DNA of 54,654 nt. Source: a virus. Positions 8,724-17,903 of this stretch are shown piece by piece (within the stretch, counting starts at the first letter, position 1; each line of letters starts with the position of its first letter). The notes under the pieces were generated by a model, which was not told where the DNA came from, ran no database searches, and worked only from the letters and a program-made list of their open reading frames with translations. The stretch is from positions 1-54,654 of IMG/VR virus record IMGVR_UViG_3300034071_001887. One strand, written 5' to 3'. The position numbers and the translations under genes were made by a program.

Positions 8724-10982
8724 ATGGCAAACCAGAAAACAACTGAACTACGTTCACTTACTTCAACAAATGTAGCAAATGGCGACTGGCTTCCTATTGT
8801 AGACGTTAGTGAAATAACTAGTCCTACCGGAGAAACCAAGAAAATTTCTGCGGCAGATTTGGCTGAATATGTGGTTTCTGGCGGGTTCGCTAATTTCACA
8901 ATTCCTCAAAGAGGATTTCAGCTTTCAAATGGTTTATCTTTTGCGTCTGGAACATTGCCGGGAAGTGATACAAATTTATTTTGCTACGGAAAGGCATACG
9001 ATCTGGGGGGAAGTTTTTCTTTATCGGTAAGAGCATTTATATCTTCCGACGAAGTGCTGACAGACACAAGTAATAGAGTATTGTTTGGTGTTGGTTCAAG
9101 TTTGATTGCGATGGCGAATAGCGGAAGCCGAGCATACGTTGGAATAAAGTCTAGTAGTTTGATCGGATATATAAATGATGGTACTACCGAAAAAATAATA
9201 GAATATCCAGATTTTTTAAACTTGTATCCAAACCGTCCTTTTGACGCCACAATAACAAAAGATTCTTCTAACTATTTTAAGTTTTATGTAAATTCTCAAC
9301 TCTGGGGAACTCTTTCATCTGCTCCAAGTTTTATAAGCAGTTCTTATACTACTATGGGATGTGGACAGACCGGCAGTCATTATAACATAAACTGCGTTAT
9401 CTACGAAGCGCACGTTTTTAATACTGCATTGACTGGTAGTAAAATTATTCAAAATTATCATGGCGGCGTAAGAAATAACGACTCTACTCTCGTTTCTTCG
9501 TATACTCCGGACAACTTAAATCCTGGACCATCTCAATGGATTGATTCTATCGGCGACAACCATTTGTTGCTGCCAGTAAGTGGAGCATCGGCAACAAGTC
9601 CAGACACCAATTTTGGTTTGATATTTTTCAGTGACGGAACATCTGGATATTTGGGTAATGGTACACAGCGAGATGTTTTGCCTAAGAATTATGTTCTTAC
9701 TGATTGTTTTGTATATTCTCCCGGTAAACCGTTGTTATCTGTTGGATCTACTTCAGACGTTGCAGTAGAAGCGGACAGTGGAATATATTCATTTAATAAT
9801 AACAGAGTACCTTTAGTAAGTGCATCATATGGTAGAAACGTATTGCCATTATTGGAACTTGGTGTTGCCCACACAGATAGAAGTTTGTATGTATTTTATA
9901 GTGCAAGTGCCGCTCCTTGTACATTTAGTTTTCAAGGATATACTTGCAAATATGGACCTATAAATTTTGTTCCAGCACCTACTTCAACTCCTACACCGAC
10001 TCCATCACCTACTCCTACACCTTCTCCAACTGCAAGTCCTACCCCCACACCAACTCCAACACCTTCTCCTACTTCTAGCCCGACACCAACGCCAACCCCA
10101 AGTAATACTCCTACTCCGACCCCTAGCGGAACTGGAGCTACTCCAACTCCAACTCCCACTCGGACACCAACTCCGTCTCCTACGGCGACGGGTGGCGCAC
10201 CTTCTCCGTCGAGTACACCAGGACCAACGGCTACTCCAACGCCAACACCAACAACGCCTCCAGTATCTCCGTCCGTGGATGTTAATATCAATCTATATCC
10301 AACATATATGGATTCAGATTCTTCCGCATATGCACAGTCGGAGACTTTTGTTTCTCACGCTATACAAATGAGAACGGCTACAACTGAGGGTGGATTGAGC
10401 AGTGCCGGATATGTTACAGTGGGATCTCGCAGTGCTCCTCCGAGCAATGTTGGCGGAAATAGTGATTATTTATTGCTTACAAACGTTATTCCTACAGGGA
10501 ATCCTGCTCCATATTGGGTTGAAGCCAGAGGTGTATTGGTGACCAGTGGAGGAACTTATTATAGTTCAACCACCGACGTAGTATATTTCAATCCATCAGG
10601 AGCAACGGCGACGCCAAATCCATCATCGACTGCGACACCTACACCGACAGCTACGCCTACAGCTACGCCAACACCGACACCTACGTCTACAGCTACGCCA
10701 ACACCTACAGCTACAGATCCAGTACCAACGCCTACAGCTACAGATCCAGTACCAACGCCTACAGCTACAGATCCAGTACCAACACCTACATCTACGGAAC
10801 CAGAACCAACACCTACAGACCCTCCGCCAACGCCTACTGACTGCCCACCGGAGGGTACCATTGTTAGCATAAGCTCGTGTGATGGATGCTTGCAAGATAT
10901 AACTTATGCCGATGGAGAGTGCGGTACATACATAGATCCAGCACAATGCATTCCGGGTAACTGCTGCCCAGTATGTCCATAA
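8724..10982 (+). CDS. Tail-fibre-like protein with LamG-type domain, Thr/Pro linkers and Cys-rich end
   Basis: A 752-residue modular protein. Residues 1-50 (TTELRSLTSTNVANGDWLP, then KKISAADLAEYV) match the attachment segment typical of phage tail-fibre proteins. Residues about 60-245 look like a LamG/concanavalin jelly roll (NCVIYEAHVFNTALTGSKI). Residues about 415-510 are a Thr/Pro/Ser linker, then a Fn3-like beta domain (about 515-625), a second linker with three exact 27-base repeats, and a Cys-rich terminus with 10 Cys ending CCPVCP. Proline-threonine linkers are typical of secreted glycosylated enzymes and rare in phage fibres. Synonymous codons in the linkers vary, so the pattern is kept at protein level. 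Two paralogous PT proteins and a sugar-transferase operon follow. Confidence 0.82.
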   Translation: MANQKTTELRSLTSTNVANGDWLPIVDVSEITSPTGETKKISAADLAEYVVSGGFANFTIPQRGFQLSNGLSFASGTLPGSDTNLFCYGKAYDLGGSFSLSVRAFISSDEVLTDTSNRVLFGVGSSLIAMANSGSRAYVGIKSSSLIGYINDGTTEKIIEYPDFLNLYPNRPFDATITKDSSNYFKFYVNSQLWGTLSSAPSFISSSYTTMGCGQTGSHYNINCVIYEAHVFNTALTGSKIIQNYHGGVRNNDSTLVSSYTPDNLNPGPSQWIDSIGDNHLLLPVSGASATSPDTNFGLIFFSDGTSGYLGNGTQRDVLPKNYVLTDCFVYSPGKPLLSVGSTSDVAVEADSGIYSFNNNRVPLVSASYGRNVLPLLELGVAHTDRSLYVFYSASAAPCTFSFQGYTCKYGPINFVPAPTSTPTPTPSPTPTPSPTASPTPTPTPTPSPTSSPTPTPTPSNTPTPTPSGTGATPTPTPTRTPTPSPTATGGAPSPSSTPGPTATPTPTPTTPPVSPSVDVNINLYPTYMDSDSSAYAQSETFVSHAIQMRTATTEGGLSSAGYVTVGSRSAPPSNVGGNSDYLLLTNVIPTGNPAPYWVEARGVLVTSGGTYYSSTTDVVYFNPSGATATPNPSSTATPTPTATPTATPTPTPTSTATPTPTATDPVPTPTATDPVPTPTATDPVPTPTSTEPEPTPTDPPPTPTDCPPEGTIVSISSCDGCLQDITYADGECGTYIDPAQCIPGNCCPVCP
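10707..10787 (+). repeat. Three 27-base tandem repeats
   Basis: Units at 10707, 10734 and 10761 encode TATDPVPTP each. The units are near-identical in DNA, whereas flanking Thr/Pro codons vary. This points to recent in-frame duplication. Confidence 0.85.
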
Positions 10983-10992
10983 CAATTAAAAT

Positions 10993-16806: not shown

Positions 16807-17903
16807 CATTTTGTACATTTTATTTTGATATAGATAGAAAAAACTGGAAGCATTTTACGGTTTCCAACGAGATGTACATGTGTTGGTTCGACAATCTATT
16901 GTCGTTGGATATAAACTTGTTCATTGTTACAGAAAAAAAATTTATAAACAGGATTTTGGAATCGCGAAAGAAAATAGACCCGCAATTAAAAAAAACTATA
17001 ATTAATGAAACTACTATAGAAGCCCTGACAGGATATAAGCTATATAATAAAAAACTAGAACAGTTGATGTATTCAAACGATTTTAAGAGTATAATACACC
17101 ACCGAGATGTGCCAGAAATGTGCAAACCTTTGTATAATGTATTAATGTTTAATAAAGTTCATTATCTAGAGGAAGTGTTAAAAATTAATCCTTTTAATAC
17201 GGAATATTTTAGTTGGGTTGACGCGGGATTTATCAGAAGTTCTTCGGAAGTTGAAAACATTGAACAATGGCCAGATCCTTCAAAACTATTATTAAAAAAA
17301 GATAAGATAAAGTTTTTCTGTATTAATCCTAATGTATTCTCCGATTTAAAAAAGGACGTAAACAGTGCGAAATACCATTTACTTTCTCAGATGAGATTTT
17401 TAAAAGGAACTATATTTTTTCTACACAAAGACTTGATTTCTCCGCTGAAAGATAAATTTGATTTTTATGTGAACGATAGTATAAGCAAAGGATTTATCGG
17501 AAGCGACGAAAAAATATTTGATTTATGCTGTGCTAATAATCCTGATATGTTTGATTTATATCAATGCAATTGGCGGGAAGAACTTAAATTATTTTCTCGC
17601 AATTACACTAAACCAAGTATACTAGAATATACCGTGTCAATCGAGTGGAAAGAAAGTGATATAGAAAAATCAAACGACTATCAATTTTGGTTCTTCTGCA
17701 TAGAAGATGGAAACGGTAAATCTATTATGAGAGAAGATTTTCAAATATCTTCCGAAGAGGATTATCAAAAATATAAAAATTATAAAAATACATACAAAGT
17801 AATTTCTGATCGTAAGCCCGAGAATTTCGTGATATGGCCGGTTTCAAAATCAAAAGGATACCTAAGATACGTAAGGCATCCAGTCAAACATATTATAAAT
17901 TGA
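16791..17903 (+). CDS. HtrL/YibB-like glycosyltransferase-type protein
   Basis: A 370-residue protein. ITFCTFYFDIDRKNW, then MYMCWFDNLLSL, a KPLYNVLMFNKVHYLEEVL helix and FSWVDAGFIRSS (about residues 140-151) match the HtrL/YibB family (PF09612), found in LPS and sugar loci. Residues about 288-370 (YQFWFFCIEDGNGKS ... FVIWPVSKSKGYLRYV) are homologous to the C-terminal domain of the GT60-like enzyme that opens the operon, although the catalytic parts are unrelated. Starts at 16791 or 16797 are both possible. The -35 element of the next promoter overlaps its stop codon. Confidence 0.75.
   Translation: MVMDITFCTFYFDIDRKNWKHFTVSNEMYMCWFDNLLSLDINLFIVTEKKFINRILESRKKIDPQLKKTIINETTIEALTGYKLYNKKLEQLMYSNDFKSIIHHRDVPEMCKPLYNVLMFNKVHYLEEVLKINPFNTEYFSWVDAGFIRSSSEVENIEQWPDPSKLLLKKDKIKFFCINPNVFSDLKKDVNSAKYHLLSQMRFLKGTIFFLHKDLISPLKDKFDFYVNDSISKGFIGSDEKIFDLCCANNPDMFDLYQCNWREELKLFSRNYTKPSILEYTVSIEWKESDIEKSNDYQFWFFCIEDGNGKSIMREDFQISSEEDYQKYKNYKNTYKVISDRKPENFVIWPVSKSKGYLRYVRHPVKHIIN

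Follow-up and report, generated by a model that had tools for sequence, protein, structure and literature searches.

A putative mucin-type O-glycosylation system in large phages pairs a GT60-family transferase with Thr/Pro-rich fiber-like proteins

Viruses are known to encode the glycosylation of their virion proteins, and GT60-family proteins are already annotated in phages. Here we describe a locus of a 54,654-base IMG/VR virus record (IMGVR_UViG_3300034071_001887), analyzed whole and referred to below as the window, in which three fiber-like proteins with long Thr/Pro(/Ser)-rich (PT) stretches, fibA, fibB, and fibC, are followed by a six-gene sugar operon that opens with a GT60-family gene. 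Our favored explanation, to which we assign a probability of roughly 0.72, is that the locus is a phage-encoded cytoplasmic mucin-type O-glycosylation system for the phage's own virion fibers, with the GT60 enzyme initiating on Thr and the other enzymes extending the glycan.

The closest described enzymes are the eukaryotic GT60 α-N-acetylglucosamine (GlcNAc) transferases, such as Skp1 Gnt1 of Toxoplasma and Dictyostelium and the T. cruzi enzyme, which also have a DxH motif. The phage protein shares with them the family PF11397 and a proposed polypeptide acceptor; it differs in that its gene lies in an operon with putative acceptors, its C-terminal domain is common to a second enzyme, and no PF13640-type hydroxylase accompanies it. 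The section of a review on protist mucin-type glycans presents GT60 as polypeptide α-GlcNAc transferases related to GT27, described there without a C-terminal ricin-type lectin domain (PMC8724618). The GT27 polypeptide N-acetylgalactosamine (GalNAc) transferases, the initiators of animal mucin glycosylation, resemble the catalytic part of the phage protein most closely in structure and share its LDSH motif, but sequence identity is 12 to 15%, the C-terminal part is not consistently matched, and uridine diphosphate (UDP)-GlcNAc is suggested as the phage donor only by family precedent. Chlorella virus PBCV-1 also encodes glycosylation of a structural protein, and a PBCV-1 transferase matches the model of our sixth operon enzyme; in this algal virus, however, the glycans are on the capsid and the linkage is different, and we know of no GT60 initiator there. 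Glycans on phage virion proteins have been described for mycobacteriophages, on capsid and tail-tube C-termini rather than on PT-rich linkers as proposed here (Freeman 2023, as cited in PMC12619734).

Among phages, full-length relatives of the GT60 protein (48 to 50% identity, at least 97% coverage) are found in XacN1 of Xanthomonas and in RAS14 and CM1 of Stenotrophomonas, the latter two being near-identical in size and match, and all three also encode PT-rich proteins. In XacN1 and RAS14, homologs of an HtrL-GT2 protein and of a carbamoyltransferase lie beside GT60. Unlike in the window, the XacN1 GT60 gene is not adjacent to most PT genes, and no fibA, fibB, or fibC homolog was seen near it. 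Passages of the XacN1 paper report glycoproteins, suggest phage transferases as their possible makers, state that no tail fibers were observed, and give PXD008065 as the deposit of virion mass-spectrometry data (PMC5852040). A title and abstract search of the open-licence literature, with most subscription papers and all preprints outside its scope, gave no paper on GT60 paired with PT-rich phage proteins; neither this pairing, nor how widely it occurs, nor the mucin-initiator fold was encountered there.

Thr-Pro linkers and the predicted fold of the GT60 protein

The nine + strand open reading frames (ORFs) spanning 8724 to 17903 are separated by gaps of at most 71 bp or have small overlaps. 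Thus, as claimed in an earlier reading made from the DNA letters without database searches (the sequence-only reading), three fiber-like PT-linker proteins stand directly before six coupled genes. We call fibA, fibB, and fibC fiber-like from their architecture and position and regard them as putative virion fibers. The anchors of fibB and fibC were matched by the same proteins, and the fibA body, the fibA N-terminus, and the fibC anchor were each without a match among 50,697 phage records.

Five PT segments of 55 to 111 residues lie in these three proteins, and one of 44 residues lies in a fourth PT-rich protein, which has this single linker and has homologs in many related loci. The six segments comprise 491 residues, including 156 Thr and 164 Pro, and contain 97 Thr-Pro (TP) dipeptides, compared with a mean of 52 and a maximum of 67 in 1,000 composition-keeping shuffles; only 3 Thr-Thr dipeptides occur. 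Because all four Thr codons and all four Pro codons are used, the linkers are a feature of the protein and not a simple DNA repeat.

The motifs IFIQIAAYRDP and LQLDSHHRF, from which GT60 membership had been proposed, are present at residues 7 to 17 and 90 to 98 of the first operon protein, and Pfam confirmed the family, PF11397 scoring 249.4 bits against a cut-off of 21 (E = 9.3e-74). PHROG_24687, annotated "glycosyltransferase," gave a near end-to-end match (E = 6e-178). Within the DxH motif, D93 and H95 are unchanged in 24 aligned GT60 rows, and an AlphaFold model made with 24 aligned sequences had a mean predicted local distance difference test score (pLDDT) of 92.8 and a predicted template modeling score of 0.85. 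When this model was compared with solved structures by Foldseek, ranks 1 to 17 were all polypeptide GalNAc-transferases. The same class filled rows 1 to 29 of a VIA comparison, with Z scores of 19.0 to 22.2 over 259 to 320 aligned residues, the next enzyme having a Z of 16.1. Against viral models, Foldseek returned phage proteins already annotated "Glycosyltransferase, GlcNAc." Only the fold comparison was informative, as searches of Protein Data Bank (PDB) sequences with the GT60 protein or a GT60 profile gave nothing relevant. In GalNAc-T2, the corresponding motif reads LDSH, and GGE and GH follow later in the sequence; by eye, the counterparts of these two in the GT60 protein are G204-E205 and W229-H230. 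Pfam gave no lectin family match to the GT60 protein, and the listed structural matches cover mainly residues 1 to 344. The DxH motif thus lies in a predicted GT-A fold, that of polypeptide O-glycosyltransferases.

Two other substrates can be considered against this predicted fold and the gene content. Glycosylation of phage DNA is a role that PMC12619734, in its passages on the subject, ascribes to some phage transferases, but the polypeptide-transferase fold and the location of the operon with fiber-like genes make it scarcely credible here. The sequence-only reading had named both Thr and hydroxyproline as residues modified by known GT60 enzymes. The latter would involve a Skp1-like route, in which hydroxylation of the linker prolines precedes transfer of the sugar to hydroxyproline by the GT60 enzyme; Gnt1, a GT60 member, acts on hydroxyproline of Skp1, according to the pertinent part of PMC6939170. 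The 2OG-FeII oxygenase family PF13640, the sole oxygenase family searched, was found in neither the window (0/1) nor, with one exception, 25 long records from the 91 viral GT60 loci described below, some of which may be fragments. Because PF13640 is absent from the window and from 24 of these 25 records, Thr is the likelier acceptor and the Skp1-like route appears very improbable.

Co-occurrence of GT60 genes and PT-rich proteins

A set of 26 viral GT60 loci was enlarged by 65 to 91; because the best 80 of 571 relatives in the larger search were kept, the 91 loci cover those family members that are closest to the window. PT ORFs were defined by 30-residue windows with at least 20% Thr, at least 20% Pro, and at least 66% Thr, Pro, and Ser together, covering at least 30 residues. 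Such an ORF was present in the fetched DNA of 73 of the 91 loci, and in 55 it lay no more than 600 bp upstream of GT60 on the same strand; overall, 117 of 144 PT ORFs were upstream of GT60 on the same strand. When loci were clustered at 90% GT60 identity, 44 of 59 clusters had a PT ORF and 31 had one as immediate neighbor. When the anchor was instead placed on randomly chosen genes within these loci, 5,000 permutations gave 8.3 such clusters on average and at most 19. Clustering at 80% identity left 37 clusters, 25 with a PT ORF and 16 with an immediate neighbor. Only 3 of 130 neutral control loci, obtained with two arbitrary DNA patterns, had a PT ORF, and because these loci are shorter than the GT60 loci, densities were compared as well: 144 PT ORFs in 1.65 Mb of GT60 loci versus 5 in 1.04 Mb of neutral loci. 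Thus, the pairing that the sequence-only reading had proposed to look for in viral genomes does recur, and one of the two outcomes named as refuting that reading, a lack of co-occurrence in related phages, was not observed.

A second control bears on whether the operon instead alters the host surface polysaccharide, as in superinfection exclusion, and stands beside fiber genes since both concern the cell surface. This is the published reading of cyanophage sugar clusters in the relevant part of PMC7824862, and the variable transferase content of the GT60 loci resembles that of O-antigen loci. However, none of 23 sugar loci with HtrL and without GT60, all of cyanophage type and with Bellamy counted twice (L436 and L438), had a PT ORF. 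In addition, neither Pfam nor PHROG assigns any of the six genes to a lipid-linked or membrane enzyme (no prediction of membrane segments was run), polypeptide transferases are the closest structural matches, and glycoproteins are reported, in the passages noted above, for XacN1 (PMC5852040). We therefore consider a role in host polysaccharide unlikely.

Searches from other starting points gave the same pairing. The PT-free fibA body used alone as query found 31 loci, all 31 of them carrying GT60 together with one or more PT ORFs. The earlier GT60 locus lists had not included eight of the contigs, and six of these eight carried GT60 proteins only 38 to 41% identical, which form a separate tree branch (100/99 support; midpoint root). 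The fibA relative was without a linker in 7 of the 31 loci, and in all 7 another ORF carried one. A (Thr-Pro)5 DNA pattern gave at least 120 stretches, from which 80 loci were listed; 56 of the 80 had a PT ORF by a slightly different criterion (40-residue windows with 25% Thr, 25% Pro, and 70% Thr, Pro, and Ser together). PF11397 was found in 10 of 79 listed records and in none of 100 neutral records (from the first neutral pattern, its complete set of 50 records; from the second, 50 of 80 loci), and, among records of at least 50 kb, in 8 of 17 compared with 0 of 13. Whole records of XacN1, RAS14, and CM1 contained 29, 19, and 19 (TP)3 DNA runs and 0, 1, and 1 occurrences of the pattern read backward. 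Six phage records without PF11397 contained 0, 0, 0, 2, 0, and 0 such runs; three of these six (Mel-JY01, immuto, and LR756508) share a baseplate protein with the window at 38 to 45% identity. In XacN1, 12 annotated ORFs that were translated had PT stretches in frame and two neighbors had none; most PT genes are far from GT60.

Twenty-nine bacterial GT60 loci were also examined, some on contigs of metagenome-assembled genomes (MAGs) that may be phage DNA (e.g., L244). Seven had a PT ORF, in four of them no more than 600 bp away. On a 1.3-Mb contig of Jiulongibacter sediminis, GT60, a second GT60-like gene, a carbamoyltransferase homolog, and a PT-rich protein are neighbors; the product of the second gene (L241 7957-8877) passes PF11397 and is short, without the C-terminal domain. 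In a Saprospiraceae MAG, the PT-rich neighbor of GT60 has a secretion-system sorting tail (PF18962).

Several observations weigh against O-glycosylation of the linkers. No PT ORF was present in the fetched DNA of 18 of the 91 viral loci, and (TP)3 runs occurred in 4 of the 18 whole records of these loci versus 3 of 32 long neutral records, with no clear excess. Clustering at 70% GT60 identity reduces the 91 loci to just 7 groups, of which 5 contain a PT ORF and 3 have one as immediate neighbor. PT ORFs were lacking in 22 of the 29 bacterial loci, including 12 of 14 from Burkholderiaceae, and PF11397 in 69 of the 79 listed Thr-Pro-pattern records, many of them fragments. The fold alone reveals neither donor nor acceptor, and the XacN1 text, in the passages on its glycoproteins, does not say which proteins are glycosylated (PMC5852040). 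The PT-less loci and the GT60-less Thr-Pro records would be expected if PT linkers were unmodified flexible spacers, the operon being linked to them by chance or a shared recombination hot spot and its enzymes modifying another virion protein. However, the pairing holds across protein families: the 55 directly upstream PT ORFs, clustered with the window's three after masking of the PT parts, fall into 12 families. It also holds with the deeply diverged GT60 proteins, at genome scale in XacN1, where most PT genes lie at a distance, and in bacteria. Unmodified spacers thus seem quite unlikely.

Two further features of these genomes were noted. XacN1 ORF232 to ORF237 (L490 2049-11105) form an unbroken row of six hypothetical proteins, all containing a Thr/Pro stretch, and the four compared are alike at the N-terminus. 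Three loci without a PT ORF (L175, L179, and L183) have flanking Ser-rich ORFs (13 to 17% Ser) downstream on the opposite strand, and another type of acceptor is possible there.

Operon enzymes and their variability

The sequence-only reading had assigned all six operon genes to sugar work. This is well supported for three of them, namely GT60, FkbM, and, through its predicted fold, HtrL_YibB, and moderately for the fourth gene; it was not established for the DUF3431 gene or for the fifth gene, whose match is weak. Pfam cut-offs were passed by the FkbM (PF05050), DUF3431 (PF11913), and HtrL_YibB (PF09612) proteins in addition to GT60, and DUF3431 has, to our knowledge, no known function. The sixth enzyme found nothing relevant among PDB sequences. 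Its model (pLDDT 86.2) was structurally closest to LARGE1 (Z 14.0), with blood-group-type enzymes at about 12 and the PBCV-1 transferase at 12.3, values that are middling.

A stretch of ∼78 residues at the C-terminus of the sixth enzyme shows homology to the GT60 protein's C-terminal domain (E = 4.5e-10; 7.7e-6 from the PHROG side), a relationship that the sequence-only reading had missed; the two proteins thus share C-termini of ∼80 to 105 residues despite catalytic parts of different families. From this homology, the shared region may possibly be a common docking domain. A role as PT-recognition module, suggested by the presence of the domain in both enzymes, was set aside and kept as an idea, since some GT60 proteins in PT-selected records have no detectable copy.

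The genes between GT60 and HtrL vary from locus to locus. An HtrL-GT2 two-domain protein (query from locus L005) has a homolog in 80 of the 91 viral loci (in 73 of them the match spans 80% or more of the protein), as well as in XacN1, RAS14, and 8 of the 29 bacterial loci. The window has instead HtrL with the shared C-terminal domain, a form of which three relatives were found. A carbamoyltransferase homolog is present in 13 of the 91 viral loci and a homolog of the window FkbM in 1, and the window FkbM had no match among 50,697 phage records. FkbM, which the sequence-only reading had methylating the glycan, is therefore not a constant part of the system. Because the intervening genes differ between loci, HtrL-GT2 is common, and FkbM and the carbamoyltransferase are rare, these data suggest a constant initiator with a changeable extension set.

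Downstream of the operon are genes for an HD-type phosphohydrolase-like protein (17943-18617) and an Hsp20 chaperone (18780-19226), with homologs in 18 and 14, respectively, of the 26 close loci; several of these loci stop short. A large protein at 19277-21625 with repeated Hoc-like/tail-protein PHROG matches is also found 3′ of the sugar operon in loci L004, L005, and L007.

Table 1. Positions of the fiber-like genes, PT linkers, and operon genes in the window
Feature	Positions	Strand	Basis or remark
fibA, fiber-like, 752 aa	8724..10982	+	PT-free body residues 1-410, then two Thr/Pro linkers
PT linker A1, 111 aa, proposed O-glycan acceptor	9954..10286	+	composition of fibA translation
PT linker A2, 90 aa, proposed acceptor	10590..10859	+	composition of fibA translation
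fibB, 136 aa	10993..11403	+	short anchor domain and PT tail
PT linker B, 84 aa, proposed acceptor	11149..11400	+	composition of fibB translation
fibC, 411 aa	11407..12642	+	anchor, PT linker, PT-free part, PT linker, C-terminal part
PT linker C1, 55 aa, proposed acceptor	11548..11712	+	composition of fibC translation
PT linker C2, 107 aa, proposed acceptor	12160..12480	+	composition of fibC translation
GT60/PF11397 polypeptide glycosyltransferase, proposed initiator, 434 aa	12714..14018	+	Pfam, PHROG, model
DxH motif D93-S94-H95 of GT60 protein	12990..12998	+	D93 and H95 invariant; LDSH also in GalNAc-T2
C-terminal domain of GT60 protein, ∼residues 330-434	13701..14015	+	homologous to C-terminus of sixth enzyme
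FkbM-family methyltransferase	14022..14645	+	PF05050, E 2.4e-13
DUF3431 protein	14642..15217	+	PF11913, E 1e-14
Glycosyltransferase-like protein	15218..16027	+	phrog_1579 glycosyltransferase, E 3e-7; Nucleotid_trans and PLOD GT below cut-off
Possible glycosyltransferase, weak	16024..16806	+	DUF3405, E 0.023, below cut-off
HtrL_YibB protein, predicted GT-A-like fold	16791..17903	+	PF09612, E 3.5e-26; TTG start, later ATG possible
C-terminal domain of HtrL_YibB protein, residues 282-359, common to GT60 protein	17634..17867	+	E 4.5e-10
Fourth PT-rich protein, 521 aa, outside the nine-gene block, possible further acceptor	23292..24857	+	linker 24615-24746

Proposed pathway and its meaning

The locus has two features of mucin-type systems: dense Ser/Thr/Pro domains and, judged by family and predicted fold, an initiating transferase encoded with its putative acceptors. 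Since the pairing is found again in many phages and in a small number of bacteria, and the predicted fold resembles that of mucin initiators, phages with this pairing probably attach sugars to their own fibers. Most likely, the PT linkers are O-glycosylated on Thr and then extended by variable enzymes. Fiber proteins would be made in the cytoplasm with UDP-sugars at hand, so that no export would be needed. There, the GT60 enzyme, with its GT27-like fold and DxH motif, would transfer a sugar to Thr, and perhaps Ser, in the linkers of the fibers encoded just upstream; by family precedent, this sugar may be GlcNAc from host UDP-GlcNAc. With about one in three linker residues a Thr and TPTP runs spacing them two apart, the product would be a stiff, brush-like stalk. 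We infer that the remaining operon transferases then extend the sugar, which the methyltransferase may cap. The initiator and linkers would be constant in this lineage, related phages would exchange the extension genes and so decorate one type of linker with different glycans, and the phage could benefit from stalks that are rigid, protease resistant, or masking.

More broadly, and with slightly less than an even chance of being right, mucin-type O-glycosylation may be a mobile prokaryotic and phage system built from a GT60 initiator, surface proteins rich in Thr-Pro, an HtrL-GT2 partner that is conserved, and extension genes that can be exchanged. Many large phages would use it to put diversifiable sugar brushes on their fibers and some Bacteroidota to modify secreted proteins, and the mucin-initiator fold would have a deep non-eukaryotic branch acting on the same kind of acceptor. 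If the proposed pathway is correct, it would constitute a defined phage protein O-glycosylation pathway of mucin type with identifiable acceptors, and would supply soluble bacterial-type enzymes for making mucin-like glycoproteins. It would also explain the many Thr-Pro-rich proteins of some large phages and would give phages a means to vary their own surface.

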